NCBI RefSeq assembly: GCF_019097595.1
Contig: NC_080731.1
Coordinates: forward strand, 17,075,071 to 17,139,070
Source of the DNA: Hemibagrus wyckioides
Lineage: Eukaryota; Chordata; Actinopteri; Siluriformes; Bagridae
DNA length: 64,000 bases
Direction: 5' to 3'
The notes under the pieces were generated by a model. The model saw only the letters and a list, made by a program, of their open reading frames with translations. It was not told where the DNA came from and did not search any database. A program made the position numbers and the translations under genes. Shown piece by piece: positions 9,401-48,209 of this stretch (its first letter is position 1; every line of letters starts with the position of its first letter).

Positions 9401-12400
9401 TTCCAGAAGCGCATTTGTGAGGTCACACACTGATGTTGGACGAGAAGGCCTGGCTCTCAGTCCCCGCTCTAATTCATCCCAAAGGTGTTCTATCAGGTTG
9501 AGGTCAGGACTCTGTGCAGGCCAGTCAAGTTCATCCACACCAGACTCTGTCATCCATGTCTTTATGGACCTTGCTTTGTGCACTGGTGCACAGTCATGTT
9601 GGAAGAGGAAGGGGCCAGCTCCAAACTGTTCCCACAAAGTTGGGAGCATGGAATTGTCCAAAATGTCTTGGTATGCTGAAGCATTCAGAGTTCCTTTCAC
9701 TGGAACTAAGGGGCCAAGCCCAGCTCCTGAAAAACAACCCCACACCATAATCCCCCCTCCACCAAACTTTACACTTGGCACAATGCAGTCAGACAAGTAC
9801 CGTTCTCCTGGCAACCGCCAAACCCAGACTCGTCCATCAGATTGCCAGATGGAGAAGCGCGATTCGTCACTCCAGAGAACGCGTCTCCACTGCTCTAGAG
9901 TCCAGTGGCGGCGTGCTTTACACCACTGCATCCAACGCTTTGCATTGCACTTGGTGATGTATGGCTTGGATGCAGCTGCTCGGCCATGGAAACCCATTCC
10001 ATGAAGCTCTCTGCGCACTGTTCTTGAGCTAATCTGAAGGCCACATGAAGTTTGGAGGTCTGTAGCGATTGACTCTGCAGAAAGTTGGCGACCTCTTCGC
10101 ACTATGCGCCTCAGCATCCGCTGATCCCGCTCCGTCAGTTTACGTGGCCTACCACTTCGTGGCTGAGTTGCTGTTGTTCCCAAACACTTCCACGTTCTTA
10201 TAATACAGCTGACAGTTGACTGTGGAATATTTAGGAGCGAGGAAATTTCACGACTGGATTTGTTGCACAGGTGGCATCCTATCACAGTTCCACGCTGGAA
10301 TTCACTGAGCTCCTGAGAGCGACCCATTCTTTCACAAATGTTTGTAAAAACAGTCTGCATGCCTAGGTGCTTGATTTTATACACCTGTGGCCATGGAAGT
10401 GATTGGAACACCTGATTCTGATTATTTGGATGGGTGAGCGAATACTTTTGGCAATATAGTGTATCTTTATTCCAAGTTCAGTAATGACAGTGTCTACTGA
10501 ACTTTTCTCTTAGGAAAATTCAACATAACCCACTGTGCATGGCATTAATATAGCCTTACAAATTATTTTTAACAACTGCAATCAATTAGATATTAATGTG
10601 ACTAACCTCCTGCTCTTTGTCAGTGTCACAACCTTTCAGATTGCCAGGCTTGAAGATTTTGCTCCCAAGAAAGCTGTAAAGATCACGCTTCTTAATTCTG
10701 TTGATGATGTCCTTTGCATTTTGTGGGAGATTTGTATCTTCCAGAATGTCATCTGTAAAACAGAAGAAAAAAACTAAACAAGAGTCTAATCACTGATACT
10801 ATGTCATATGGTATCATAGGCACAGACTCCCAAAACAGGACAGTTGAAGATTTTTGTCTTCAGCTGTCCAATTTGAGTATATCTGTACTAGATATAGCCT
10901 TAGATTATTGTTCTTGTTCTGCCTAACTTTTGCATTGTGCTTCTGCCACATGAGCGACTGATTAGATAACTACATGAATGTGCAGGTGTTTCCAAGCAGG
11001 TAGATCTGTCTTTCATTGTTGCATATAGAGCTTGAAATCTGGCCACTAGCATTTTGCTAGTTAGCGAGAATAGTGTCCATGCGAAGTCAAATCTCACTTA
11101 TGAGAGGGCTGATCCTTGGTGTACACCAAATTTAATGTTGAATGTTAGTAAGATTTCTTATGGGAATCATACAGCACTAGATGATGTGTAGTAGTTCATC
11201 CATTTTACCATTCATCCTTTTTTGTCCACATAGGCTACTCAGCTGCTTGTTCAGTCCCTTAGACTATTTAGACTGGTCTACTGCAACTCGCTCCTTGAAG
11301 ATCTGCCTCTGAGCGCTACTCAACCTCTGCAAGTCATACAGAGTGAAGCTGCATGATTTGACTGCAACAGATTCAGATTTTTGAAAAAACCTTGGTTGTT
11401 TTGACTTCTGATGTGGAAACTGACATCACTGGTCTGTTCGTTTTTATGACAGTAGGATATTTAGAACTATGTTAAAAGAGAACCTGTGAGTGTTAGAAGT
11501 TTTTCAGGTGAAGTTGCTTCTTCAGAGATTTTCCTGACATCCGTATCTGCTGCCAAAAGTGCGTCAACAATCCTGAAAAATGAGGGAAACATGGTGATGA
11601 AAACATACATTCATATAACATACAGATCTGCTCATAATTACACATACTCTTGGAAGAATTTGTAAAATTTTTTACCTTTTTTTATTTTTAGAATTATATG
11701 TGATTATGTGATGCAATACACATTTTCTTTATTTAGTAATAGTGTGTGGATAAAGCTATTTATTATCACAGAAATGTCCATGAATTATAAGCGTAATAAA
11801 CATCCCTATATGTGCATCATAATTCTGCATCATAATAATTATTGAAATTACACAAATGAAATTACATGCCCTTTTGGATTGTTACTGTGAACTTTAGGAA
11901 TTTGTAACTGTAATTTGTTTGATTGTAATTGGTGAATGTGCATGAACTGTCAGTGTGTTTCTAAGTTATTAGGCAAACCTTGTGCATTACATTTAAGTCT
12001 ATACTGAATTTGGTTGATACTAAAATATGGGGAAAGCAACTGTCTAATGATCTATGAAAAAAGTAATTTAACATTTTAAATTAGGTTATTAGCTTTGGTT
12101 ATTCAAACACTAATAAAGAAGTGGAAAGCCAGTGGTTCTGTGGGTACAAAGTCAAGATCAGATACACCATGGTAAAAGTTCAGGCACAAACCTTTTACGA
12201 GATGAAAAGAAACTTTTACGAAATGCAAAAACCCTCAAGCAATATAGTCAAATTTTACTCAAATACTGGTTTATCTGAAACAGAGTTAGATTACTGTAAG
12301 GAAATGCTGAAACAAAATCAGCTACATGGTAAGGTTGTCTGAAACTTTTTTTTTTAAAATCTCCCTTTTGGTTTTTGTCTGCCTGATTACATTCATAGGA

Positions 12401-26029: not shown

Positions 26030-26860
26030 AAGTTAGAATAATGCGAGTTTCACCATACTACCATCACCTTCCTAGGTTATGTGCTCTCACTGGGGAAGGT
26101 GGAGATGGATCAAGCCAAGGTCCAAGCTGTCTCCAAATGGCCCGAATCCATCACAGTTAAGGATTTACAACGCTTCCTGGGGTTTGCTAACTTCTACAGA
26201 CGCTTTATCAGGAACCATAGCATGATTGCCAGTCCGCTAACCTCTCTTCTTAAAGGAAAGCCTAAGAGACTGTCATGGACAGACCGAGCATGTGACGCTT
26301 TTAAAAAACTCAAAACCAGTTTCACCTTGGCCCTGATCCTATGTCATCCTGATCCAGACACCCCCTTTGTCGTGGAAGTCGACGCCTCCAGCCCGGGGAT
26401 TGGGGCCATCCTGCCGCAAGGCCAGCCAGATTCCGGGAAACTCCACCCTTGTGCGTACTTCTCCAGGAAACTAACCCCAGCAGAGGCAAATTATGATGTG
26501 GGCAACCGTGGCGCCACTGGCTGGAGGGAGCACGACACCCCTTTCTGGTTCTCACAGACCACTGTAACCTTCAATATCTGCAAGGTGCCAAGCATCTCAA
26601 CCCCCGGTCAGGCCCGCTGGGCCCTCTTCTTCACCCGCTTTAACTTCTCCGTCACCTATCGTCCAGGCTCCAAGAACGGCAAAGCTGACATGCTGTCCCA
26701 CCAAATGGACATAAAAAACTCGCAATCTCAGTCTGATCCCATCCTGCCACCCTCTGTTATCCTGGCTCCCATACAATGGAACCTTATGTAGGAAATCAGG
26801 AGAGCTCATGTAGAGGAAGCTCCGCCCGCAACCTCCCCTATAACCAAGCTTTATGTGCCC
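26030..26860 (+). pseudogene. Chromovirus pol remnant: RT end and RNase H
   Basis: It begins inside the RT thumb ([16 protein letters not shown]), so the YxDD catalytic block and the protease are missing. The frame 26081-26791 holds [15 protein letters not shown], the RNase H start [13 protein letters not shown] and [19 protein letters not shown] stop precedes CEFH, and the connection to integrase is broken after 26791. Confidence 0.85.
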
Positions 26861-27637
26861 ATCACTCTTCGTCCTAGAGTTTTACAGTGGGTGCACAAGG
26901 CGCCCAGTAGTGGCCATTCAGGTATTCGCTGCAACACAGAACTCACCCAGCACCATTTCTGGTGGCCCTCTCTCAGTTCCGACGTTGAGGATTATGTGAG
27001 ATCTTGCTCTACCTGTGCCCAGTCACGCACCAGCCGCCAGCTTCCCGAGGGTCTGCTTGAGCCACTGCCCATCCCACACTGTCCCTGGTCGCACATCGCA
27101 GTGGACTTCCTGACGGATCTCCCAGCCTCGGATGGGTTCACTGCGATCCTAGTCATCATTGACTGGTTTTCTAAAGCCTGCAAACTGATACCACTCAAAG
27201 GACTACCCATAGCCATGGAAACAGCAACCATGCTTTTTCACCAGGTTTTCCGTCACTACGGACTCCCAGAGGACATTGTGTCGGACAGGGGCTCTCAGTT
27301 CACCTCACACATTTGGCGGGCCTTCTGCTCTCAACTGTGCATTAATGTGAGCTTGAGTTCTGGGTACCACCCTCAGTCTAATGGCCAAGTAGAAAGACTT
27401 AATCAGGACATCAGGAGGTTTCTCCACTCCTACTGTAGCCGCCAACAACACTGCTGGAGCGAGTTTCTTCCCTGGGCTGAATATGCCCAGAACTCCCTGA
27501 CCCACTCGTCCATGGGGCTCACGCCATTCCAATGTGTCTTAGGATATCAACTGCCATTGTTTCCCTGGTCTGGGGAGCCCTCCTCTGTCCCCGACGTAGA
27601 TGACTGGTCCAGATACAGCCAAGAGGTATGGGAATGA
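26855..27637 (+). pseudogene. Chromovirus integrase, open but truncated
   Basis: About 260 codons are open. Zinc-binding HHCC residues are visible (HKAPSSGH then CSTC), followed by the DDE core: [15 protein letters not shown] and [13 protein letters not shown]. This enzyme would insert the cDNA. The frame stops at 27637, and the C-terminal part continues in a different frame from 27688. Confidence 0.85.
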
Positions 27638-30423: not shown

Positions 30424-31208
30424 CAATTCAATTCAATTCAATTCAGTTTATTTTGTATAGCGCCTTTTACAATGAACATTGTCTCAAAGCAGCTTTACAA
30501 AAGAAGAAAACAGAGAAAAAGGAGGGGAAAATGAAAAATAATAATAAAAAATAAGAAATAAAAATAACTAATTAACTAGAAATAAGAATAAATTATTAAA
30601 TTCTATAATTAGACTATTTTATCCCTAATGAGCAAGCCTGTGGCAACGGCAACGGTGGCAAGGAAAAACTCCCTGGGATGGTAAGGAAGAAACCTTGAGA
30701 GGAACCAGGCTCAGAAGGGAACCCATCCTCATTTGGGTGACACTAAAGAGTAAATAATGTAACTGTAGCTTATTAGTGTCCTTTCTACAACAGCAATCAA
30801 TGACCATGAGGAACTATTAGGTCATTGTAGTTTCTAAGGTCATTATAAACATTAGTTCTTTGCTGTCACGGGCTGACAGATGAAATGGCATCTCTGTGAT
30901 GGTGTGAAAGTCCCCAAGTGGCTCTGTCCATGGCTGTCTCCTGGTCCACACAGATCCATCCACAGCACCAGTGGTCACCATCAAGCGGCGAGACTCCGAC
31001 CAGGGGTAGGGCAGTGGTCACACTGGAAACTGGCAAACACTGGGAACTCAGGAATGGGGTGTATAGTTCAACAGAGAAGGTAGAGAGAGAAAGAGAAAGA
31101 TATTAAGTTTCTGATCATGTGATGCTTAAAGACAGTGTAGAATTAAGTGTAAAGTGCAGGCAGGGACTCCGGCAAGACTAGCTATGACAGCATAACTAAA
31201 AGGGAGAG
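30424..31208 (-). repeat. Interspersed fish repeat split by the provirus (left part)
   Basis: It starts with (attca)n and gtttattttgtatagcgcct, then agcagctttacaaaag and aggaaccaggctcagaaggg, all typical of an abundant teleost repeat. It runs to agggagag at 31208 and resumes after the provirus at 48210 (ccagaaggtcacagacatga), ending near 48360. The strand and class (possibly a LINE 3' end) are uncertain. Confidence 0.7.
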
Positions 31209-32992
31209 TGTCGGAACTCAGAGCCCCCTCCGAGTGGACATATCACAGGGTGGAATTTTTGTTTGTATCTATTTCTCTTAGCTTTCCCAATGACCCCCAC
31301 AAGCTATAAAACTTAGCCGAAATAAAAGAGATCTCAGTCAACAGATGAGAAGAAGCGGGTTTCTTTATTCAGCCATGCAGTCAACAACATGCATATCTGA
31401 AGAGAGCAGCTGGTCTCCCAAACCCCGAAAAAGTCCCCTCTACTTATACCCCAGGCGCCCCGGGGCGCCTCCTTTTCTCTGATTTAAATATTTCCAGCAA
31501 TTTCCAATTATATTCAGTGTATGGCTACTTTAGTCCCTCCTTCCTTAGTTTACATACGTTTCCCAGTTCCCATTATTTTCGCATTTGTCCCGATACCGCC
31601 CCTAAATTGATACCATCCTCCCCTCAATGACGTCAATTTTCCTCCTCTCCAGTTCCCCTTATTTTTAGGCTAAGTCAACAATTTTTAGAAAAAATAGGCG
31701 CTTACTTATAGGCGCCACTTCCTTATTGACTTCATTTGACCGTCACCTCTTAAAGGTGCTTCCTCGGCTCATCCTGACCTCGCGCGTTGCCCTCCACAAC
31801 AATGTGTAAGTACCTTGCTCTCTTCCTCTATGTCATGATGACTTTTCCCTCTACCTACTTGATCTAAGTTTTATTTACTATTTTTAAAATAAGCTGTGCC
31901 ATTAAGCTGCCTCATATCCTTTTCTCTTTTCATCACTGTTGGTTGCTAGTATTCCAATGCTATTGTCTCCTCTACCCGCCTATCAGTGTCATGTCACAGT
32001 GACCTGGCCTACTTCCCACACTGTGTTCCTTTTGCCTTAGTACATGCTCTCTTTTGCTGACTACATAGTCACGCAATATGCACTTCACTCATCTTCACTC
32101 ATCTCTTCCCATTTCCCGTTATTTTTCCTAGCTCAGTCAGCCCGCCGCGCTATCTTCCGGAGAAGTCCCAGGGGTGCTCTGCGACGCTATCGCCAGTATC
32201 AGCTATCCTGTCTGGCCTTTGAACTTACTGGTTTCCTGGAGCACCTATCTGAATCCTCTATTCCTGAGTCTCCTTACCTCGCTCACCATATCGTGAGAGA
32301 TACCGTCTTTCTTGATCAGAGCACCCAATTTCACCCCACAACCTGTGATCAGTCTACTCAGACCTTCTACTGGCATTGGACACGCACCACCTCTCAAGGC
32401 GTCCAGACTGAGGATTTCCCTGTTGAGATCTCCTCTAATGATTCTTCCTCTGACTCTTCTTCATCTCCTAATTCCCCTGACATTCCCCAACTTTCTCCTG
32501 AATTTGTGCCTATGCCTTACAGTGTTCATGATATTCCTCAGTCTTCTCCTGACTATTCGCCCCCAACTTCTCCCACTGATTACTCTCCAACTTCTCCTCA
32601 GGATCCCGAGATTCCGTCTTCTACAACTGACCCCCCGGTCCCACTGATCCCATTGGATAGGCTGGCTGACTGAGTTGTAACTCCTAATGTTCCAATAAAT
32701 CTCTCCTCTTTTCTGTTTCTTCAGTCCCAGTGTGGTTATTACGCTAGCATGCTGCCATTAATAATTCTGCATGATTATTATAAAGACTATGAAGCTATAT
32801 CTGATTATTATAGCTATTATTAATCAAAGTTAACTACTCAATCAATGGCTAAATAATTCTTGATAGATACACACTACTCTTAGGCAGAATATTGCTAAGT
32901 CAGAGCTTAGAGCATTGAGTACATTATTACTTAAGCTACTTTTAAAGCTAGGTATATAATTCAAAGCTGGATATATTATTTTTTCTCCGACA
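31209..32992 (-). repeat. 3' LTR of the provirus (1784 bp)
   Basis: It begins TGTCGGA and ends TCCGACA in either direction. In the viral (minus) direction a TATAAG box is at 31443-31448 and AATAAA at 31364-31369, so U3 is about 1.55 kb, unusually long. The opposite strand holds CCAAT (31287), TATAAAA (31305-31311), a 209-codon ORF and AATAAA (32694-32699). Confidence 0.92.
32044..32673 (+). CDS. Antisense ORF inside the 3' LTR (209 aa, unknown)
   Basis: The ORF runs opposite to gag-pol-env and lies wholly in U3. I do not recognise the protein. Residues 34-50 are Arg-rich (RR..FRRS..G.LRRYR), 128-153 are Ser/Asp/Glu/Pro-rich, and the C-terminal part has two heptads, YSPPTSP (171-177) and YSPTSPQ (180-186), like RNA polymerase II CTD repeats. 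Local signals fit a gene: TATAAAA at 31305, a GTAAGT donor after 31805, a pyrimidine-rich acceptor ending at 32040 three bases before the ATG, and AATAAA 21 bp after the stop. The ATG context is weak, and splicing would create a 7-codon upstream ORF starting at 31802. A second copy in the other LTR has the same sequence. A nuclear regulatory role is inference only. Confidence 0.6.
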   Translation: MLSFADYIVTQYALHSSSLISSHFPLFFLAQSARRAIFRRSPRGALRRYRQYQLSCLAFELTGFLEHLSESSIPESPYLAHHIVRDTVFLDQSTQFHPTTCDQSTQTFYWHWTRTTSQGVQTEDFPVEISSNDSSSDSSSSPNSPDIPQLSPEFVPMPYSVHDIPQSSPDYSPPTSPTDYSPTSPQDPEIPSSTTDPPVPLIPLDRLAD

Positions 32993-33008
32993 TCACTCCC
33001 CCTTTGAG
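32993..33008 (-). promoter_or_regulatory. Polypurine tract of the provirus
   Basis: On the viral strand AAAGGGGGAG is followed by TGA and then the LTR TGTCGGAG, the standard position for plus-strand priming. A second copy of AGGGGGAGTGATGT lies at 33581-33594. Confidence 0.8.
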
Positions 33009-33800
33009 ACTCGTGAGTCTCACAATCAGCTTGTACATGTCTTAGTTCCACTACTCTGTGTTCTTATCCCCCATAGTAGTTACATCATCTTCTTGCGACA
33101 TTACACACAGGGTTTTCATGCACAATGTCCTTTTAGATGAGGCACAATTTCTTCTGACCCAGGCACTTTGCGTGCCGTAGAGGGTCCGATGGAGCTCCTG
33201 GGAGAGGTTACCAGCACTTCACCAGGTAGCTCATCACTACACGGTCCAGTGTGTCACTTGGACACTATCTATGTCAGGTAGACATCAAAACTGTCAAGTA
33301 GACATCAGAAACTTTCCACATTATTAGAAAAGTTCCACATTATTAGATTCTTTTCTGTATTTCTAATGCATCAAGTACGCTTTCTAACATCCTCCACCTA
33401 GTTTACTCCTATTCCATTGTCCTCTTCCACATTATATTATTCTGTCTATTTTCTTACTATACCCGATGTATTCATTACATTCTTTTTGTTTCTTACTATA
33501 CCCGATGTATCCAATATATTCTTTTTGTTTTTCTATTCCATTGTATTTCCATTACAATAGTGATGTCCATACCATACCCCACATCACTCCCCCTATTCAC
33601 TCACTATGCTTCTTCTCAAGGTGAACCAGGAGCGAAAAACCCTCAAGAGCCAATTGTAAGGGAAAAGTCCCACTCTGCTCGCACTTTGTCATTTGTGCGA
33701 CAGCCTGTTTTGCCAGGATCACCAAACACATACAGACATACGTTCATGACATTTTGCACACAGAAACACAATTCACCAGGTCCAGTCAGCACTTACAATG
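33009..33800 (-). other. Non-coding 3' region of the provirus
   Basis: Between the accessory ORF and the polypurine tract I see no coding frame of note. There are short direct repeats: aagtagacatca-type pairs near 33281-33305, tccacattattaga pairs near 33316-33346, and a 38-bp pair containing ttactatacccgatgtat at 33453-33530. A second polypurine-like motif is at 33581-33594. Confidence 0.6.
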
Positions 33801-34568
33801 TCACCGATCAGTTCCACCACCAATAGTGGTGTTTGTATAACGCCGAAATCCACTTTGGCAAGGGCGCGCGTATGCGCGAGCGTGCCCGCAGCGCATCCCA
33901 AACATCCCAAAAGTGTGCATTTTCATGCCAGTACCTATTCCTTTGCAGGCCACCACTTCTGAGTCTTTATTCTTCCATGCATAAAAGAAGTGAGGCATGG
34001 GCTTGAGGTTGTCCAAGCGTCTGCGTTGTCCTTTGGAATGTGAGGTCCACAGAAAGTAGCCACAGAAATGCACAGTCACTATTTGTACCATAGTAGACTG
34101 GACAACATTACGCGTGACGAGGAATCCATGCGCCTGGGGACCCCCGTATACCGAAGCCAACGATATGGGACGCCGAAGCAAATACGTGTCCACGGTTAAA
34201 GACAGGTTGCGGGGAAGCTCAAAGCGTGTCGAGTACTTCTCGACCAACCACCTATCTTCCTCATAGTAGAAGTCGGCCTGTGTGAGCAGCTGCTCGATGG
34301 GACGTGCCGCTTCCATGCTGAAGGTCCACTCTGGGTCTGTACAACATGCGTGGAAGACCTTCCACCGTGCCTGAGGATCCCGAGACTCATGCAGGGCTTC
34401 TAAGGTTGCCATCATATTGCAGCAGGCCACACACTGGAGATTATGCCATTCCAGATAGCCTTTCCCTTGTGAATCAAGTTTTAGTTGTCCACACGGAAGA
34501 GATGTTCGGTTAGGGCGATGGTAGCACCTGCACTGAAAGACTGCACCTGGGCTCTGTGATGCTGCCAT
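33801..34568 (-). CDS. Intact accessory ORF between env and 3' LTR (255 aa, unknown)
   Basis: A single open frame of 255 codons from MAASQSPG. I chose this start because a good splice acceptor (TGTGTGCAG at 34574) lies five bases upstream of ATGG; the frame opens six codons earlier at 34586. The protein is Cys-rich in its first part (CRCYH, LPCGQ, CVACC, HACC) and basic later (KGQRRR). No signal peptide or membrane segment is clear. Its place after env and its separate acceptor suggest a spliced accessory or regulatory gene as in complex retroviruses. It has no stop or frameshift, unlike pol and env. Function unknown. Confidence 0.7.
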   Translation of the reverse strand: MAASQSPGAVFQCRCYHRPNRTSLPCGQLKLDSQGKGYLEWHNLQCVACCNMMATLEALHESRDPQARWKVFHACCTDPEWTFSMEAARPIEQLLTQADFYYEEDRWLVEKYSTRFELPRNLSLTVDTYLLRRPISLASVYGGPQAHGFLVTRNVVQSTMVQIVTVHFCGYFLWTSHSKGQRRRLDNLKPMPHFFYAWKNKDSEVVACKGIGTGMKMHTFGMFGMRCGHARAYARPCQSGFRRYTNTTIGGGTDR

Positions 34569-34664
34569 GAATCCTGCACACAACATTTATATACACAACA
34601 AAGAGGAGAGACAACAGAGAGGAAAAGATGCACAAGAAACAACACATACCAACACCTTTAACTT

Positions 34665-37083
34665 TCTTTAACAATAGTATGTGATATTGTCCAGCAGGGG
34701 ACAATCGGTCTCCTGCCTTTGTTTTCCATCTTCTCCATTGTCCTCCGCTGTGCCCATAAAGACGGGGTCGCTCATGTCCTGCATGTAGAGCTGCATATAC
34801 TGTCCGAAAAGAGAGTGCACAATCTTGTCCAATAAGGCACGTAAGCATGGTATTCCACAACAAGCGATGAGAGCAACTACCAGTAACACTATTAAAATGG
34901 TTGTCCCGATGCGCGTGAGTCCGGCCAACTAATCAGAGGAAAACAGCCAGTCAAGCCAGTCTGGGTCTGAGGAAGCATTATTAGAGACCATTTCGTCCAG
35001 AGCCGCTTTCATCTGTGATAGCAGCATGTCCAGTGGGCCTGCAGGGCCCGTATGCAGCGGAATAATGGTACAACAATCAGATCCTATCATGTCACATACT
35101 CCCTGATCGGGTCCGCGCATCATGTCTATAGCGAAACGATTCTGTACAGTCATAAGGGTCGTCGCATGGAGCTGTTCTGATACCAATTTTAATGCCTCAA
35201 TGGTATGATTAATAAACCGTTGCTGGTTATACCAAATGTAATTAACCCATGCCGTGTTCCGATGTACCTGTACTGCTGGAAGCAAGATGTTCCAAGCTGT
35301 AGACGAGCCTCTTCGAAGGGCTAAATGTTTGCTAGGAACTCCAACTGGTATCCCTTCCCAATTTATATAAATATTCGTGTCCGGACCCCATTTTGGGAGT
35401 ATTGAGGAGTTTGTGACCTGTAAGTACTTTTTTTCGATATGAGCCTGGAAGACCAGTATGGGTAAAAATGCTTCTAGCAACTGTATTTGTGAGTTCACGC
35501 TTGGGGCGGCGTAAATGTGCAGGTTCAAACATGGATGCGAGGTATGAGTCATTAAGGGCGATTACCGAGAGTCGTCCTTCCAGTACCACTGGGGCACATA
35601 GCCCATGCCATAATCTGGGTAGAATTTGTAGGACTTCCGTACCTCCACAATATCAAAAGACGTCTGCAATGGGTAACGTTCCCAGACACAAGCTTGGGAT
35701 CTTCAGTTGGACTACCATACCGGGTTCACAGCCGTACTCTGACACATTACAGGTTGGCATTACATTAACTATAGGGTGTGCTGCCTCCATTATTTTATCA
35801 CACAATGCTTTTGGTAGATCCCCTACATATTCCGTACCTCTAGAACGGATGCACAGTGGAAACAATTCAAGAGGATGAGAACGTACACGTATACTATCGG
35901 TAGCCTGAGTGGCAATGGGATGAAAAGTGCAAGAGGAACTTAATTTACGCATCCAGTCTGCACCATGAGTCCTGGCTACAGACCCCAGCAGACATACTGC
36001 AGGGCATAAATAGCTTTCATTATATGGTGGGTTAGCACATTCTTGGATTCCCCTCGTAGGCATCACAAGCAGGGGGCTATGCATGTGGTTATGGCATACC
36101 ATACATGTGCTGTTGGTAACAGTCTTGCGTGCTGCATCATGTAGCCATTGGCGGTACAGGTTCTGTGGAGATTCAGCGCCGTTTGTACTGTTGTACTACG
36201 TGATCTTTGTGATGTTAACATAATCTATTGCCTCTTGTACATTCTGGGTCAAATTTCCTACGGTCAAATTACAAAGTGACCCGGTGCTACAGTCTTTAGG
36301 AATCTTTACCCCAAAGTCAATCCCGGCCTGGCGGATTTCTGTGTAGGGGTGCCCCGTGGGCACAAACACACGAGCCTTATAGTCGTCTAGCAGGACGGTC
36401 TTCTGAAGATTACGTTTAGAGGTAGCATTCCCAAAGATACTGTAATACCAGAGCAGATGAATTACTCTGCAGTATGCCTCCTCTGGTTTTCCTGCTATAA
36501 TTACACTGCTTGTTGGACTGCTTGCATTATGGCGACTATAGGGCGACTTAATACGTACCTCAGCTGTCACTGTATAATTTATCGCCGAATTGTTCTCCGC
36601 CCACCTGATAGGATCCACATTTACTGGTGGATCGGGCCCCATGTACTCCAAAGAGTACATGACGAACACCCCTTCATTCTTCGGTATCATGTTTGCCTTT
36701 AAAGCATGTCCTATCAGTCCTATTGCACATTTCAGGTGATCCTGAACCGCGATCTGAGCCTTCTCTTTTGTAAGATCCAGTGTGCGCTGTTGTCCTCGAT
36801 ACACTGTACGGCCTCCAATGGATGCCTCACCATACCCTACGTTTCTTCTGTATCGTGAATTAGCCTGTTTTTCAGAGTGCTGCCGTGTCCCATGGGTCAG
36901 TGTGGGGTGTGATTCATTAACTAGTTTTGTCTGAGTTGCGTTTATCAGTGTCATATTTTCCGATGTCGTAGTTGTGTGACCAAGCATCCAAACTATCCCC
37001 ATGTATACACTAATTAGTACTGCCACTATAGCGCAGTGGCGCAGTTTCAGCGTTTGTTCGCGGCCTGCTACCATGACCTTCAT
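34665..37083 (-). pseudogene. env: Envelope gene (env), inactivated
   Basis: The gene starts at 37083 with an N-terminal hydrophobic segment (about residues 17-36) and a surface-unit region rich in N-x-S/T sites. A furin-type site RPKR is encoded near 35490. The transmembrane subunit has an immunosuppressive-like region followed by CDMIGSDCC, the C-x6-CC motif, then a membrane anchor (near 34860-34915) and a tail ending at about 34668. Lesions: in-frame stops at 36196, 35653 and 34929, and a frameshift near 35400-35550. The C-x6-CC motif marks gamma-type env proteins whose two subunits are disulfide-linked. Confidence 0.85.
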
Positions 37084-37215
37084 TCTGACTCTTCTGTACT
37101 GTCTTGAGCTATATCTGCTAAATTCAGTGTTGTTAGATCTGATGCATCAAATGCTTGGGACGGTTTATGCCCAGACGGACCTGGTCTGGGCTCGCCTGAC
37201 AAATCTTCTATCGTT

Positions 37216-40200
37216 TCAGGCTCCCTTAAAAATTGGTGCACTATAGGTTCGAAGTTGCTCCTCAGTAATCGGGCCTGACTCTATGGTCTGGGACTCCGCC
37301 TTCTGCTGCACTTTCTTTCCTTTTCCCCATGTATTGTATGCTGGTGCTTCTGGATGTTCTACATCTTCTGGGTCAGTGTCTTCCTCCGAGTGAGCGAGCT
37401 GCACCAGTTTTGGGCGCGAGTCTTTCCACTTCGGTCCTTTCCCTGCCGCTCTACAACAATGATTCAAATGATACCAGTGTTCTCTTCCTTCAACCTTGAC
37501 CGCCGTTGGCATTGCCAATACTACCTTGAATGGTCCCTCTCTCCTTGGTTGGCTCCAATGCTTTCTTTTGAACACTTTGATATACACGTAGTCTCCTGGC
37601 TCCACCTGACGAAGCTCCTCCTTCTCTACCCTCACACCATGCGTGGCCTCGCAGACCTGTGAATACAGAGTTCTATGTATTTGGGTTAGGTGTCTTACAT
37701 AGCTTGACATTTCGCCCTCTAGCTGTTCCAGCGATGGGCCCTTGTAAGGCCCCCAAATGAAGGCTACTGGCATTGGCCGTCCTGTAAGCATTTCATGTGG
37801 TGTCAAGTGAGTGTTCCTGTTGGTTTGCGAACGCATTTTCATCAGTGCTAACGGCAATGCTTGTACCCAATTTAGCTTTGTGCTCACACAGATCTTAGCT
37901 ATCTTCTCTTTCAGCACTCCATTAGCTCTTTCTACAATCCCCTGAGACTGTCAGTGATATACGCAACCTAGACGGTGTTTCAGGCATAAGGCCTCTGCCA
38001 TAGCTTTCATTACTTCGTTCACAAAATGCGGACCATTGTCTGAGCTCAGCTGATCTGGGATGCCAAAGCGGGGGATCACTTCCCTGCACAGGAACTTAAC
38101 CACTGTCTTGGCGTCATTTTTGGCCGTAGCCTGCGCCTCTACCCATCGGCTGAACCGATCTATCACAACCAGAATATACCTCTTTCCTTCCTTTCTTTCT
38201 GTAGTTCCCATATCCACAAAGTCTATCACTAGGTGTGGCTGATGGGTGCCGTGAAATGTTTTCTGACATTGCGTACTGCACAAAGCTCACACGATCGCAG
38301 GAATTTGTCCACCATACTCGCTAAGTATGGAGACCACCAGCTCTCTCGAATTGTTTCAATAATTTTTCTGCGATCACAATGATCTATTCCATGTGCTTCT
38401 TTGATCAGCATTGGAAGGAAACTTAGTGGGGCCACAAACACTCCGTCACAACTTCTCCATGTCCTAGACTGGGGATCTAATACCGCTCCCTGTTTCTTCC
38501 ATAACTCTCTCTCCTCTGCTGAGGCAGACTCTTGGAAGGCCCTGATATCAGCCATTGTGACCTGCATCTGCCCTTCATCATCTGGCTCTCCTGTTTGCAT
38601 CATTACCATGACACTTGTTTCACCTACTGCTGCCTTTTTAGCTGCCTCATCAGCTACTGCATTTCCTTGGCTGACCCATTCTCCATCTGACTTGTGAGCT
38701 CTACATTTTACGATTGCCAATTCTTTAGGGAGCATCATTGCTCCTAACAGCTCTGAAATTGCCGGCCCGTGTACAATGGCTGATCCATCTGCCCTCTGGA
38801 AACCTCTTTGTGCCCAGATTGGTCCAAACACGTGGCACACTCCATAAGCATAGGCCGAATCAGTGTATATTGTACATGTTTTGCCTGGCCCCAGTTTGCA
38901 GGCTGCTGTTAGTGCTTTTATTTCTGCCAATTGGGCAGAGCATGGTTGTGGCACTGCCACGGTCAATACTGTTTTAAATACCCCTTCTTGGTCATCATAT
39001 TGAACTACTGCATAGCCAGCTTTGTTTCCCTCATTACTACGATAGCATGATCCATCCACAAAGAGGATACATTGAGCACCAGGCAGTGGTTGTGCTTCTA
39101 AGTCTGACCTAGCTTTTAGGTATTTTTCTGTCACTTCAGCACATTCATGTGGGGCTCCGTCTTCTGGGAGCCCCAGCCTATCTGCAAGATTTATTGTGCG
39201 GCATTTCTCAATTGTTAGTTCAGGAGCTGACAGAATAACATCATAACCTGTTTTTCGAGCATTGGTTATCACAAATTTTTGACTAGTCAGCAGTGCATGC
39301 AAGGCATGGGATGTATACAGGGTCACTGGATGCCCCATTGTGATTGATGATGCCTTTTGATAGGCAAATGCTGCAGCTGCTAATCCTCGATAGCATGGTG
39401 GCATGCCCTTCTCCACACTATCGAGTGCCGTGCTAAAGTATGCTACTGGTCTTTTCCCCATGCCTTCTTGTTCCTGTGCTAACACTGCTGAGGCAAACCC
39501 TTTTCTTTCAGACACATACAAATAGAATGGTTTACCATAGTCTGGACATGCCAATGCAGGTGCAGATGACAATGCAGTCTTTAGCTTATCAAATGCCGCT
39601 TTTGCTTCCTCTGTCCATGTTAATGGGGAACTAGACTTTGTTTGGTCTGCTGCTTTCACAATATCCCTAAGTGGCTGTGTTTTCATTGCAAAATCACAAA
39701 TCCACGGTCTGCTAAAACCCGCCAATCCCAAGAAGGATAGCATCAGTTGGACAGTTTGAGGTCTGGGAGCTTTTCAGATTGCTTCTACATGTTGGGTTGA
39801 GATTTTTCGTGTAGTGCCTTCTAGCACTCTACCTAAGTATTCTACCTTTTGCTGGCAGAATTGCAACTTTTCTTTACTTACTTTATGCCCGTTTAGGGCC
39901 AGAGTTTTTAAAACTTGCACTGAATCTTGTATGCATTGCTCTTTGGCTTGACTGCAGATCAGCAGATCATCCACATATTGCAATACTGTGCTGGACATAT
40001 CCAAATTAGTCAAATCTCGGGCTAGAACTTGGTTGAAATCTGAAGGGCTTTCACAATAGCCTTGTGGCAGTCTGGTGTATGTATACTGCTGTCCCCCATA
40101 GGTAAAAGCAAACAGGAACTGTGAATCTGGATGTAATGGAACACTAAAGAATGCTGAGCACAGATCAATTACTGTGTACCATTTTGTTCCTTCTGGAATG

Positions 40201-40500
40201 TTAGACAAAAGTGTGTGTGGATCTGGAACTACAGGATTTTCCGCTATCACCACCCGATTTACTGGTCGTAGGTCATGGACTAGTCTCCATTTGTCTGAGT
40301 TTGGTTTTCTGACCGGAAAGATGGGGGTGTTGCACTGACTTTTTGTTAAGACCAAAACTCCTGCTTGCGTCAGTCCCTCAATCGTTGGTTTTATCCCTAC
40401 TATTGCTTCTTTTGACAAGGGATACTGTTTCTGATATGGCAATCGTGCTCCTGGTTTAAGCTGTATCTTAACTAAACCTGCCGACTTTACCAGTCCGACA
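37216..40500 (-). pseudogene. pol: Retroviral pol: RT, RNase H, integrase, inactivated
   Basis: Reverse transcriptase (to 39774) shows WRLVHDLRPVN, LPQGYCESPSDF and LQYVDDLLI. After an in-frame TGA at 39774 the same frame continues through the connection, RNase H (VDGSCYRS, YTDSAYAYG) and the integrase HHCC finger (HGIDH, CELC) to 38229. A frameshift near 38240-38280 leads to the integrase core (DFVDMG, SSDNGPHF). Another in-frame stop at 37951 precedes QGIVERANG, and the C-terminal GPY/F-type domain (EGPFKVVL) runs to 37216. The domain order and GPY/F-type end are those of gamma/epsilon-like pol. Confidence 0.9.
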
Positions 40501-40747
40501 TCTGTTTGGTTGTTTGGTCCATGGCTGGTCAGGTATTTGTGCTAGTGCTTCCTCCCTTTCTTTCTCTGTGATCTCCTGCTCTTCAGCCCATTGGGGCAAT
40601 TGTTTCATCTTGTTCTTCTCTATCCTCAAATTCTCAGCTCTGCTTATTAGTACAGTCTGTGGCCTTACCTCATCTATTGCTACTATTCATCTATTGCTCT
40701 ATTTTAAGGAACTTTCTATCTGGGGACACACTGACTCCCTGTCCTAC

Positions 40748-42610: not shown

Positions 42611-44608
42611 GCATATGGGCAGTCTTGTTTCAGGTGACTAGGATCTTGACATACCCAACATCCTCTTCCTCCTTGGTTCATTGGAGCTCTTCCTCTCAAA
42701 GGTTGCTGAAATGCTCCTCCTCCTCGACCACGTCCCCGTCCCTGACCCCATCCTCGATCCTGGGGTTGGTATTGTTGAACTGGGGGGTACATTACCAGCG
42801 GTGGAGGTGCATAGTAAGCAGGCTGCAGTTTTTGCGGGGGAATCACTGGCGTAGTTTGCGCCATCGCTGCTGGCTGTGGCACTGGAGATGCAGGCTGAGT
42901 TGCTGGGGGTGCTGCTGGTTGTGCCACGCTCTTCAAACCGTGTGATCCATTTTTGAGCTCCTTCACAAATACTTGGCAGTCTGCCGATTAATCCCGTCAG
43001 GTCCATGAATGACCATGGGACATAAGCCACATCGTTTCCTTTTATTATCACTGGCATCTGGGATGCCTCCACCTGCTGCTCTTCCTTGTTTTCTGGAGGT
43101 CCTTCCCCTGCACCTTGTTTCCGTGCAGACCGTAATTCCATAGCCAAAGGGGGTATTACTTTCCTTGTCCTTCCTTTTTCTTCTCCTCTCACCTGGTTTT
43201 GCAGTTCTCTCAGCGTCTGCCTGGCTTCCTCCACTTTTTGTTCCAGATTACAGCGTGCTTCTTTTATTTCTTTCTTGAGGTGGGCCAGTTCTTCTTCACT
43301 TTTCTTCATTTTTATCTGACTTATCGCAGACAACTCCCCTTGTGAGTGCTCTAATCCATACACCTTCTGCATTATTTGGCCACGCAGGACCTTATCCTCT
43401 GACACGTCTATTTCCGTCTTTTCCAGTTTCTTCCTTGTACTTTCCAGTTCTTCTTCTATGTGTGCTTGTGTCTGCCCCCTCAGCTCTTCCATTGTTAAGC
43501 GACTGTCTTCCATTCTTACTTCCATTCTCTCCATCCGTTCACTTATCTCACGGAACCCGCCATCTCTTTTCCCTTTTGTTGATGGCATTAGTCTCACTTT
43601 CCCTGTTATGTGATACTCTTCTTCTTCCATTTCCGCTTCGATTACTTCCTCCTCTCTGTACTCGCCCTGCTCTCCTTTTTGAGGTGTGGGGTAGAACCCT
43701 TCCTTTTGCATGATTTCCACTCCATTGTCTCCTTCATCTGGGGCAGAAGCACTTGTTGTTTCAGCATCATTCTCCCATTCACCTGGGTTGCCCCCCTGTA
43801 GAGACTCGCTCCCTTCGCTATTCGCTCTCGGTGGCGGATCTCTTGTCCAAGTATTTCTGGGTGCGGGCGTGCTTGTTTTGTCTTCCAGTCCTAACCACTC
43901 CATCTTTCCTTTGTATTTTCCCTTCCCTAAATTCATCTGATACTCTCTCCACATGTCAGTTCCTGCCCCCATTCTTCTATATGACACTGGATCCCACGCC
44001 AGACTTTCCTTACTTCCTTCCAAGCTTCCTTCCTTCTCGGACCCCTCTGGCCTAAAATGGGTCTGCTCCTGCTCTCGCTTCGAGCACTGCATGGCTGCTG
44101 CATTCTTTTCTCCACTTTCATCTTCACTCTGCGTATATACTACCTTGCCTTCAAATTGCTCTTCCATTATCTCCAGCCTTACTGTCTGTGGTTGTCCCTC
44201 TCTTAATAGGACAGGATAGATTCCTGCTGTTCGTGTTGGGGGCACTTCTCTGTATGGGGGTGGTTTCTCCTGCTCCACAGGCTCCTCTGCTGGACGGGCT
44301 GTAGCCTTTTCTTTCTTTTCATTTATAAGTGCTCTCTGCCGTTCCCCTTCCACTTGGAACCAATCCACAATTTCCTTCTTTCTGTCAGTCTTGTCACTAC
44401 TCTCCTTCTTTATTTCTCCCCAGCACTCTAGTCTTTCCTTCATCTTTTCACACCTTTCATTATTAAATGTGCCTTCTAGTGGCCACTGCAACTCCCCACG
44501 TGTCTGGTCACTCCATTTTTTCATATACCTTTTAATTTCTTTCTCTACTTCTTTGTGCTTCAGTATAATTACCACTACGGGTGTGGTTGGTGTCTCCTCT
44601 GTACTCAT
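42611..44608 (-). pseudogene. gag: Retroviral gag, frameshifted and lacking most of capsid
   Basis: The frame opens at ATG 44608. Visible in order: a basic N-terminal region, a PPPY late-domain motif near 44260, a long charged and coiled-coil region (residues about 340-490), and a short capsid-like start (VPWSFMDLTGLIG and LPSICEGAQKW near 42940-43030). The sequence then passes directly, after a frameshift near 42935, to a Pro/Gln-rich linker and Arg/Gly-rich segment and a zinc knuckle CWVCQDPSHLKQDC (42625-42670). I find no major homology region, so most of the capsid domain appears deleted. The solo LTR at 42606 cuts the end of nucleocapsid. Confidence 0.8.
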
Positions 44609-44715
44609 GACACACCCTTGTCTGGCCCTATGGGCTTCACTTCAATGACCCAAGTTACTGTTTAAAGGTGTCCAGGTCACCCTCGCGTAAATTCTTCTTA
44701 CAGTCACAGTTGGCC

Positions 44716-45217
44716 TCACTGGGTTTTTTTTCTGGATTGTTCTTCAAATATATTTATTCTATCAATCAAAAGTGCTGTTCCCAGACCTCTCTCCCACAGT
44801 ACTACCCTTGGTTCAATTGTAATAATAACCTTTAGCCCCGAACAATAATTACTCTGTATTGGTCTAGCTCCAAACACTTCCACTATGGGCTCTTCTTCCT
44901 CGCCGTATGGATCATCAATGAAATCATACACTGAAATCACTACCTGGGCCTCTCGGGGTTCAGGAGCTGCCAGTAACGCACGCAATAGTGGGCCCAAAAC
45001 ACGAGGTCTCCAGAGTCTTCTTAAGCTGTTCTACCCTATTTATTTCAGGAAACTGGTGACGCAATGTGGTTAGCCTGTCAAATGCCGTCAATGCCCACAG
45101 TTTATCACAAATCTGCTGTTCTGTCTGTCTTCTTTCAACCCCGTCTCTGTCTTTATAAGTTCTTTCGTCCCAAAAATGTGTTCTCAGTCCCTTTGTTTCT
45201 ATTGCCAAATCTGCCAT
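44716..45217 (-). pseudogene. Leader ORF upstream of gag, frameshifted
   Basis: An ORF starts at ATG 45217 (MADLAIETKG) and runs to about 44990, where the continuation is in another frame to 44716 (ISVYDFIDDPYGEEEEPI, acidic). Together they would make a protein of about 160 residues lying between the primer site and gag. I do not recognise it. Some epsilonretroviruses carry an extra gene in this position, so an accessory gene is plausible. The frameshift shows this copy is dead. Confidence 0.6.
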
Positions 45218-45311
45218 ACACCGCGCTCACTGCTATTCTCTCTACCCTTTTTACTTTCAGTTTTCTCAACTCAACTCTCCTTCTGTGTAATGGGGCTTTC
45301 CCCTGTATCTA

Positions 45312-45345
<34 letters not shown>

Positions 45346-45472
45346 CTGCTTCTGTGAGTGTGTCTGCTGGGTTACTTACCCCTCCTCTCTTTCCTTTTTA
45401 CAGCTTCTGCTTACAACAGTATTTATACTAACAGATCTATATAACAGTACCGTTAATCACCTATCCAGTGAT

Positions 45473-45720
45473 GGGCAGTGGTGGCTCAAGTGGTTAAGGC
45501 TCTGGGTTGTTGACCGGAAGATCAGGGGTTCAAGCCCCAGCACCGCCAAGTTGCCACTGTTGGGCCCTTGAGCAAGGCCCTTAACCCTCTCTGCTCCAGG
45601 GGCGCTGTATCATGGCTGACCCTGCGCTCTGACCCCACCCTCCAAGGATGGGATATGCGAAGAAAGAATTTCACTGTGCTGTAATGTATATGTGACAAAT
45701 AAAGGCTGTTTCTGTTTCTA
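45473..45720 (+). mobile_element. tRNA-derived SINE in the proviral leader
   Basis: The 5' part has RNA polymerase III boxes (A box around 45482-45500, gtggctcaagtggttaagg; B box ggttcaagcc at 45527-45536). A conserved body follows with gcccttgagcaaggccctta, and a short T-rich tail. Such SINEs are abundant in fish. Confidence 0.85.
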
Positions 45721-46012
45721 TCCATCCATGCCACTACTCCAACTCATGCTTCTATTCTTCCTAACACAATTCCTAAACACACACACCTGCTGCCAGCAGC
45801 AATCCTTCCTTTCTTAACAACACATTCTCAACAACGGCACATCACCTCATTTCATACTAACATATCACATTAACACTTTAACACATTTCCTCGGGTCCAA
45901 CCCTGCATTCCAGAACACTAACTATACTGTTCTCCGCAGTGACTCACCGACATCCCTACCATGCAGACCTGTTTTCCATATACAACAGCGGTATCTAGGG
46001 ACAAATATTCCA

Positions 46013-46097
46013 CCTGTGCAGGAATTTTCTCATACTCCACCTGCCTCAACCGGCAGGAATTTTTTTTTCACTTATGCCACCTGCTTTAGCCCACAGG
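46013..46097 (-). promoter_or_regulatory. Three CCTG...CAGG hairpins in the proviral leader
   Basis: Three short inverted repeats, at 46013-46022, 46040-46057 and 46080-46097, each have the form ccacctg...caggaatttt. They lie in the untranslated leader between the splice donor and the leader ORF, where retroviral packaging signals usually sit. The packaging role is inference. Confidence 0.45.
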
Positions 46098-46305
46098 AAT
46101 TTTCTTGCACACACTTATTCACCTATAAAACCTTAACACTTCATAAAACCACAAAACAAAAAGACCTCTCCGCTCGTTCTCATCTGTCTTCTCCACCCTC
46201 TAATTCTTGGCGTGAGGCCAACTGCCTTCACCCTTCCCAGGGCCACTCTACTCAGGCTACAGATATAGATTTAACACAGACTTTGAATATAACAGGTGTC
46301 TGCTT

Positions 46306-46308
46306 ACC
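46306..46308 (-). other. Major splice donor of the provirus
   Basis: The viral strand reads AGAAAG then GTAAGCAG, a near-consensus donor about 90 bases after the primer site. Matching acceptors for spliced messages include the one at 34574 before the 3' accessory ORF. Confidence 0.65.
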
Positions 46309-46397
46309 TTTCTGTTTTGATGCCGGCAATCTGCAGCCCGTAGTAGTTGCGGTCCTAGCTCAGATTTTCGGACTCACGTCAGCCTTCCCACGCAAGT

Positions 46398-46415
46398 TCC
46401 CGGGTTTCGGCACCA
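46398..46415 (-). promoter_or_regulatory. Primer binding site, tRNA-Phe
   Basis: The viral strand reads TGGTGCCGAAACCCGGGA, which is the exact complement of the 18-base 3' end of vertebrate tRNA-Phe. It lies 7 bases after the 5' LTR. Confidence 0.92.
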
Positions 46416-46422
46416 ATAAATA

Positions 46423-48205
46423 TGTCGGAACTCAGAGCCCCCTCCGAGTGGACATATCACAGGGTGGAATTTTTGTTTGTATCTATTTCTCTTAGCTTTC
46501 CCAATGACCCCCACAAGCTATAAAACGTAGCCAAAATAAAAGAGATCTCAGTCAACAGATGAGAAGAGCGGGTTTCTTTATTCAGCCATGCAGTCAACAA
46601 CATGCATATCTGAAGAGAGCAGCTGGTCTCCCAAACCCCGAAAAAGTCCCCTCTACTTACACCCCAGGCGCCCCGGGGTGCCTCCTTTTCTCTGATTTAA
46701 ATATTTCCAGCAATTTCCCATTATATTCAGTGTATGGCTACTTTAGTCTCTCCTTCCTTAGTTTACATACGTTTCCCAGTTTCCATTATTTTCGCATTTG
46801 TCCCGATACCGCCCCTAAATTGATACCATCCTCCCCTCGATGACGTCAATTTTCCTCCTCTCCAGTTCCCCTTATTTTTAGGCTAAGTCAACAATTTTTA
46901 GAAAAAATTGGCACTGACTTATAGGCGCCACTTCCTTATTGACTTCATTTGACCGTCACCTCTTAAAGGTGCTTCCTCGGCTCATCCTGACCTCGCGCGT
47001 TGCCCTCCACAACAATGTGTAAGTACCTTGCTCTCTTCCTCTATGTCATGATGACTTTTCCCTCTACCTACTTGATCTAAGTTTTATTTACTATTTTTAA
47101 AATAAGCTGTGCCATTAAGCTGCCTCATATCCTTTTCTCTTTTCATCACTGTTGGTTGCTAGTATTCCAATGCTATTGTCTCCTCTACCCGCCTATCAGT
47201 GTCATGTCACAGTGACCTGGCCTACTTCCCACACTGTGTTCCTTTTGCCTTAGTACATGCTCTCTTTTGCTGACTACATAGTCACGCAATATGCACTTCA
47301 CTCATCTTCACTCATCTCTTCCCATTTCCCGTTATTTTTCCTAGCTCAGTCAGCCCGCCGCGCTATCTTCCGGAGAAGTCCCAGGGGTGCTCTGCGACGC
47401 TATCGCCAGTATCAGCTATCCTGTCTGGCCTTTGAACTTACTGGTTTCCTGGAGCACCTATCTGAATCCTCTATTCCTGAGTCTCCTTACCTCGCTCACC
47501 ATATCGTGAGAGATACCGTCTTTCTTGATCAGAGCACCCAATTTCACCCCACAACCTGTGATCAGTCTACTCAGACCTTCTACTGGCATTGGACACGCAC
47601 CACCTCTCAAGGCGTCCAGACTGAGGATTTCCCTGTTGAGATCTCCTCTAATGATTCTTCCTCTGACTCTTCTTCATCTCCTAATTCCCCTGACATTCCC
47701 CAACTTTCTCCTGAATTTGTGCCTATGCCTTACAGTGTTCATGATATTCCTCAGTCTTCTCCTGACTATTCGCCCCCAACTTCTCCCACTGATTACTCTC
47801 CAACTTCTCCTCAGGATCCCGAGATTCCGTCTTCTACAACTGACCCCCCGGTCCCACTGATCCCATTGGATAGGCTGGCTGACTGAGTTGTAACTCCTAA
47901 TGTTCCAATAAATCTCTCCTCTTTTCTGTTTCTTCAGTCCCAGTGTGGTTATTACGCTAGCATGCTGCCATTAATAATTCTGCATGATTATTATAAAGAC
48001 TATGAGGCTATATCTGATTATTATAGCTATTATTAATCAAAGTTAACTACTCAATCAATGGCTAAATAATTCTTGATAGATACACACTACTCTTAGGCAG
48101 AATATTGCTAAGTCAGAGCTTAGAGCATTGAGTACATTATTACTTAAGCTACTTTTAAAGCTAGGTATATAATTCAAAGCTGGGTATATTATTTTTTCTC
48201 CGACA
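46423..48205 (-). repeat. 5' LTR of the provirus (1783 bp)
   Basis: It is nearly identical to the 3' LTR; I count 13 substitutions and one 1-bp indel by eye. All differences lie within about 490 bp at the left side or 205 bp at the right side, and none in the 1.09 kb around the antisense ORF. The viral TATA box is changed here to TGTAAG (46656-46661), while the antisense TATAAAA (46519-46525) is kept. Confidence 0.92.
47257..47886 (+). CDS. Antisense ORF inside the 5' LTR (209 aa, unknown)
   Basis: Same ORF as at 32044-32673, with the same translation and, as far as I can compare, the same nucleotides. Signals: TATAAAA 46519-46525, donor GTAAGT after 47018, acceptor AG ending at 47253, AATAAA 47907-47912. 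Here a transcript would start in the U5 side of the 5' LTR and end within U3, leaving the provirus and not crossing gag. Confidence 0.6.
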   Translation: MLSFADYIVTQYALHSSSLISSHFPLFFLAQSARRAIFRRSPRGALRRYRQYQLSCLAFELTGFLEHLSESSIPESPYLAHHIVRDTVFLDQSTQFHPTTCDQSTQTFYWHWTRTTSQGVQTEDFPVEISSNDSSSDSSSSPNSPDIPQLSPEFVPMPYSVHDIPQSSPDYSPPTSPTDYSPTSPQDPEIPSSTTDPPVPLIPLDRLAD

Positions 48206-48209
48206 AGAG

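Follow-up and report, generated by a model that had tools for sequence, protein, structure and literature searches.

Solo long terminal repeats (LTRs) are usually regarded as regulatory DNA. A protein gene within the LTR is known from MMTV (sag), and the antisense gene HBZ of HTLV-1 has a first exon of a few codons in the LTR, while its main coding part lies outside and its protein carries a bZIP domain. HBZ and the APH proteins of HTLV-2/3/4 are small regulatory proteins that are encoded antisense and made in a spliced form (PMC10186651). In HIV-1, ASP is an antisense protein-coding ORF with codon-level support that sits opposite env (PMC8622228), and antisense coding wholly in the LTR (U3-R) was proposed for HAP (PMC1654176), with small proteins, uncertain conservation and a requirement for unusual translation (PMC8622228). 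Among plant LTR retrotransposons, Grande, RIRE2 and Retand share a conserved antisense ORF located between pol and the 3′ LTR, which in Grande is under a promoter of its own and yields a product that goes to the nucleus (PMC7264820). For endogenous retroviruses the picture is sparser: a 2023 review, in its passages on the subject, gives no known antisense protein (PMC10186651), antisense ORFs of gammaretroviruses have been called little known and the translation of HERV antisense RNA yet to be determined (PMC8622228), ERVK antisense ORF motifs, one of them opposite env, have been mentioned with data not shown (PMC5237517), and the word "antisense" is absent from the main text of a zebrafish ERV survey (PMC8672886).

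In this study, we describe a class-I endogenous retrovirus of catfish whose LTRs very probably contain an antisense gene that encodes a protein. Similar to HBZ and APH, it lies antisense to gag-pol and, judged from sequence and gene models, has a spliced start. Unlike HBZ, both of its coding exons fall within the LTR, and it matches no Pfam family. It differs from HAP in being ATG-started, in having two exons and in showing codon-level selection, and from ASP and the plant ORFs in its location. The sag gene is on the sense strand, whereas the longest sense ATG ORF in the catfish LTR has just 43 codons. The original prediction knew of no precedent for an antisense gene contained whole in each LTR; this calls for qualification, since an antisense gene in the LTR (HAP) was claimed for HIV-1 in 2006 (PMC1654176), but for the catfish gene itself no earlier report was found among the matches listed from the open-access literature, a search that did not cover subscription papers.

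The window, a stretch of 64,000 nucleotides of the Hemibagrus wyckioides (Bagridae) genome (C22:17075071-17139070), holds a provirus on the minus strand. LTR-LTR alignment and end sequences place its 5′ LTR on the right (46423..48205) and its 3′ LTR on the left (31209..32992); the two are 99.2% identical (13 substitutions and one gap over 1784 bp), end in TGTCGGA...TCCGACA and are flanked by the target duplication AGAG (31205..31208 and 48206..48209). The primer binding site at 46398..46415 (minus strand) is presumably of the tRNA-Phe type, and a polypurine tract adjoins the 3′ LTR (32993..33005, minus strand). Pfam and PDB matches place the pol region at 37216..40541 (minus strand); it is split across several open frames, with reverse transcriptase, RNase H and integrase each in a different one. 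The best PDB matches of the RNase H and reverse transcriptase pieces are of MLV/XMRV type, with foamy virus and HIV lower, and Pfam MLVIN_C was matched in pol. By these sequence features, namely paired LTRs, a short target duplication, a primer binding site, a polypurine tract and a gammaretroviral-like pol, the element is a class-I (gamma/epsilon-like) endogenous retrovirus. The 656-aa ORF at the gag position (42638..44608, minus strand) has no Pfam family above threshold, nor do the ORF pieces at the env position (33801-37146, minus strand), the latter despite the gamma-like pol. The gap separating the 5′ LTR from the gag-like ORF is very long (about 1.8 kb, 44608-46422), and within it ARAGORN calls a tRNA-Asn (gtt) at 45474-45548 on the plus strand, antisense to the virus; Rfam gave no match in the window at the gathering score. 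Elsewhere, the window carries an open 354-aa transposase of Tc1/mariner type (9296-10360, minus strand) and a second retroelement in pieces, with RNase H-like and integrase core domains (26105-27637, plus strand).

As originally predicted, each LTR has a 209-codon ORF on the strand opposite to pol (32044..32673 and 47257-47886, plus strand), with zero differences between the two across its length. The predicted signals were likewise all located inside the LTR, on the plus strand: TATAAAA at 31305..31311, 739 bp before the ORF, GTAAGT at 31806, an intron-like stretch of 235 bp whose last base, 32040, lies 3 bp ahead of the ATG, and AATAAA at 32694..32699, a candidate antisense poly(A) signal read in the sequence and its copies. 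The TATAAAA, present in most copies read, is a possible antisense promoter; the leader from it would be 467 nt long with five upstream ATGs, so its role and the transcription start site are uncertain.

The start of the protein and its splicing appear to differ from those first proposed. Three NCBI-predicted proteins of the same assembly (P0002, P0003 and P0004, on contigs C7, C20 and C8) begin MSQSARR or MSQSACR, and none holds the first 29 residues of the 209-codon ORF. Joining ATGT at 31802..31805 to CTCAG at 32132, behind TTTTTCCTAG, yields MSQSARR and then the ORF through its stop, a spliced product of 181 aa. Use of the acceptor at 32040 with the same ATG was considered and rejected, as it meets a stop after 7 codons. 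The original claim of a gene wholly within the LTR is supported by coding constraint, but the probable start of the protein is 31802, with splicing to 32132 in place of the acceptor at 32040. On this model, exon 1 ends its coding part in ATGT followed by the donor GTAAGT, the proposed intron covers 326 bp (31806..32131), 29 codons of the longer ORF are intronic, and exon 2 (32132..32673, plus strand; from predicted proteins and copy comparison) holds the remainder of the 181-aa frame and the stop. The corresponding plus-strand positions in the right LTR are 47015..47018 and 47345..47886. At one C8 locus, the sequence agrees exactly with every piece of P0004 that was tested, and ATGTGTAAGT stands upstream. 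The NCBI models carry tails past the LTR stop, for which no canonical donor for the join was found in the window or at the P0004 locus; the P0003 tail is coded at L075 2640-2753, and a similar sequence can be made out by eye in the window near 33167-33280.

The unspliced 209-aa form might instead be the main product. It has its own ATG at 32044, its frame is open in the translations of L003, L004 and L006, and HTLV-1 makes both spliced and unspliced hbz (PMC10186651). Nevertheless, P0002-P0004 do without its first residues, the sequence 5′ of the acceptor at 32131 resembles a branch site and pyrimidine tract, and among the 82 copies described below, start and donor (ATGTGT) are kept in 70 and the acceptor AG in all 82. 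We therefore consider it decidedly unlikely as the main product, while a 209-aa form could still arise from unspliced RNA. Returning to the spliced model, a candidate sense TATA box (TATAAG, 31443..31448, minus strand) and a sense AATAAA (31364..31369, minus strand) would place the antisense exons in the sense U3. The gene would then be complete in the U3 of each LTR, with a small exon 1 (ATGT|GTAAGT), an intron of about 326 bp, exon 2 and its own AATAAA, presumably transcribed and spliced in vivo.

The pyrimidine richness of the strand makes ORF length by itself just moderately unusual here. Open runs on the antisense-gene strand reach 210 codons at most, and Markov simulations, according to the model used, produced open runs of at least 211 codons in 5-21 of 3000 and of at least 181 codons in 32-83 of 3000. 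One alternative frame of exon 2 has just 2 stops. These figures would fit an accidental ORF on a stop-poor strand, in a U3 conserved for sense regulation and making no protein. It is the comparative evidence, not ORF length, that is decisive for a coding frame, as far as sequence can tell. In 34 copies (40 places minus 6 with an exon-1 deletion, both window LTRs included), exon 2 has 60 nonsynonymous and 45 synonymous variants and a single stop variant, against 149.6, 59.0 and 7.9 expected from non-coding LTR rates; once the totals are made equal, the expected stops fall to 3.9. Relative to the non-coding expectation, the nonsynonymous-to-synonymous ratio is 0.53 (p 0.001), compared with 1.19 and 1.14 in the shifted frames. 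Ten divergent representatives, two of which (L087 and L090) each have a stop, give a pooled pN/pS of 0.39 in frame versus 0.77 and 2.27 in the shifted frames. Constraint is not strong in all pairs: single-pair dN/dS among them ranges from 0.20 to 0.76; comparisons of the C8 lineage with the others fall at 0.20-0.31 (dS 0.16-0.29), and Fisher tests on five chosen pairs gave p values of 1e-6, 2e-4, 0.03, 0.055 and 0.002. Exon 2 also has fewer variants per site (0.196) than other parts of the LTR (0.26-0.79) and is depleted in frameshifting indels, with 6 in 542 sites vs 36 in 1070 non-coding sites (p 0.004). Codon constraint in this antisense frame that is absent in the two shifted frames, together with a protein kept by relatives in other catfish genera, makes an accidental ORF extremely improbable. 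The same codon-level selection bears on a second possibility, that antisense RNA is the main product, pairing with sense RNA or setting a chromatin state, and the protein secondary. Retroviral antisense RNAs with non-coding roles are described, and ERV LTRs are widely bidirectional (PMC10186651); an additional RNA role is compatible with our findings, but as the main product RNA seems very unlikely given the selection on codons.

The identity of the two window ORFs was set aside as evidence of selection. Eleven of the 13 LTR-LTR substitutions lie within 31209-31703 (vs 46423-46916) and none in the ORF, the largest gap having a p of about 1e-4 under even placement, but the U5/R side is the most variable LTR part among copies, and in four further LTR pairs, which were put together solely on their spacing, exon 2 differs at 0, 0, 9 and 11 positions. 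The clustering may reflect gene conversion over part of the LTR, or else hypervariability of the U5/R side.

To describe the copies of the gene in Hemibagrus wyckioides, we drew on genome searches with the window DNA (best 40 of 280 candidates scored, 97-100%), with its protein (best 150 of 469) and with P0004 (best 150 of 402). Among the 150 scored protein matches, 130 have no stop in the aligned part, and several of the other 20 merely cross the natural stop. We read 82 distinct copies: 39 of the 40 from the DNA search (the left window LTR was dropped, its ORF being the same as that of the right one), 23 of the first 30 protein matches (the remaining seven were already counted) and 20 divergent ones chosen by hand. 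Exon 2 is free of stops and frameshifts in 71/82, a fraction that is inflated because the copies came from best-scoring or hand-picked matches; random stops in the frame were not seen among the Hemibagrus copies read. The 12 copies lacking ATGTGT comprise seven of the C7 cluster that miss exon 1, four with ATATGT and one cut by a contig end. By their surroundings, 34 of the 82 are solo LTRs flanked by a perfect duplication of 4 bp, another 7 are solo LTRs lacking one, 26 adjoin internal sequence and 15 miss an LTR end. Exon 2 is open in 30 of the 34 solo LTRs with a duplication, and 27 keep the start and donor as well; some of these are segmental duplicates (shared GGTC, AGCG), and the way in which copies were chosen inflates these fractions too. 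The proposal that each solo LTR could be a self-contained gene is supported in so far as most of those read, which were best-matching or chosen copies, keep the gene sequence, with splice sites other than those first put forward.

Copies of the antisense frame are clustered at C7 23.73-23.92 Mb (at least 11) and C8 8.82-9.83 Mb (about 12), and the seven C7-cluster copies read share a common deletion taking out exon 1. Such clusters, the annotation of three loci as genes by NCBI and the many open solo copies would fit a gene of catfish-genome origin, or a co-opted one, in which selection on the host now maintains the open copies. However, all copies that could be placed sit in LTRs, and searches of the genome with the window sequence, its protein and P0004 found no non-LTR homologue. 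Moreover, constraint is stronger among shared variants (ratio 0.43, p 0.002) and weak among singletons (0.64, p 0.07), as selection at the level of the virus predicts. We interpret this pattern as selection acting on the lineage of the virus, with no clear host selection later, and regard a host origin or co-option as unlikely. Related proteins also occur outside Hemibagrus. Protein searches returned four proteins at first, eight with an alignment and 25 with a wider alignment, the weakest three having E values of 0.13, 0.45 and 5.6; the eight-protein search scored just the 7983 candidates with most shared words. The matches listed were catfish proteins and two contigs only. They span Siluridae, Bagridae, Pangasiidae and Ictaluridae, with members in Silurus meridionalis, S. 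asotus, Hemibagrus, Pangasianodon, Tachysurus (named RPB1-like by NCBI), Ictalurus and Ameiurus. Profile comparison to the main group gave 98.3% for the Tachysurus group and 97.1% for the Ictalurus/Ameiurus/contig group, and 82.6% when these two were compared directly. Several Silurus members begin MAPP, and P0009, P0013 and P0016 are dissimilar up to the same point, which suggests that the intron position is shared.

At the level of the protein, the AlphaFold model contains one confident helix (residues 14-42) and is otherwise of low confidence (mean pLDDT 57.8). Leucine heptads thus fall in a single predicted helix near the N-terminus, and the tail, which carries TQT and an SPTDYSPTSP motif, is predicted to be disordered. 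Counted by hand among the 26 listed proteins, TQT occurs in 25, Y[ST]PTS in 20 and L-x6-[LIF]-x6-L in 24. We take the YSPTSP motif to resemble the polymerase II CTD heptad. A TQT anchor in a disordered stretch, as LC8 (DYNLL) clients have, is found here by sequence and predicted structure; LC8-binding motifs usually have TQT at their core, although TQT by itself is insufficient for binding (PMC6607443). With the window protein, Pfam returned no family up to an E value of 1; ten relatives gave none above threshold and two sub-threshold matches, one of them to the polymerase II CTD repeat in P0025 (E 0.047). A PDB sequence search with the protein gave no match, and a scan of IMG/VR with the family alignment gave five pattern matches, zero of them confirmed. 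Basic residues precede the leucine heptads, but identity as a bZIP protein was rejected: the basic part is absent in ictalurid members, there are three heptads and there was no Pfam match.

How such a protein would function can be outlined by analogy. An antisense promoter inside the LTR would drive a transcript that is spliced in vivo; the helix might pair, making the protein a dimer; the TQT motifs could serve as binding sites for LC8-like hub proteins; and the CTD-like motif may recruit, engage or compete for polymerase II factors. The 181-aa protein would then act in trans, tuning transcription from the sense LTR much as HBZ counters Tax (PMC10186651), and the catfish gene would likely work in a manner similar to HBZ and APH. 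We infer a trans-acting transcription regulator, HBZ-like in its working but probably unrelated to HTLV-1 HBZ; as the likeliest mechanism for the 181-aa protein, this remains tentative and somewhat less probable than not.

In conclusion, the anatomy, the coding constraint, the conservation across the family and the retention in solo LTRs are observed in this catfish case, which provides codon-level evidence for an antisense ERV protein, in fish, with the entire gene inside the LTR. Many solo LTRs here retain protein-gene sequence with splice sites and a poly(A) signal and, since all needed parts lie inside the LTR, could go on making the protein. It is conceivable, although we lean slightly against it, that the whole family in Bagridae, Siluridae, Pangasiidae and Ictaluridae is antisense in LTRs and forms a long-lived class, that its protein acts in trans to control the transcription of retroviruses, and that many solo LTRs are dispersed copies, each self-contained, of a viral regulator across host genomes. 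This sets two ideas within reach of testing: that antisense accessory genes have originated repeatedly in retroviruses, and that solo LTRs may supply viral protein in trans to silence or activate related proviruses.
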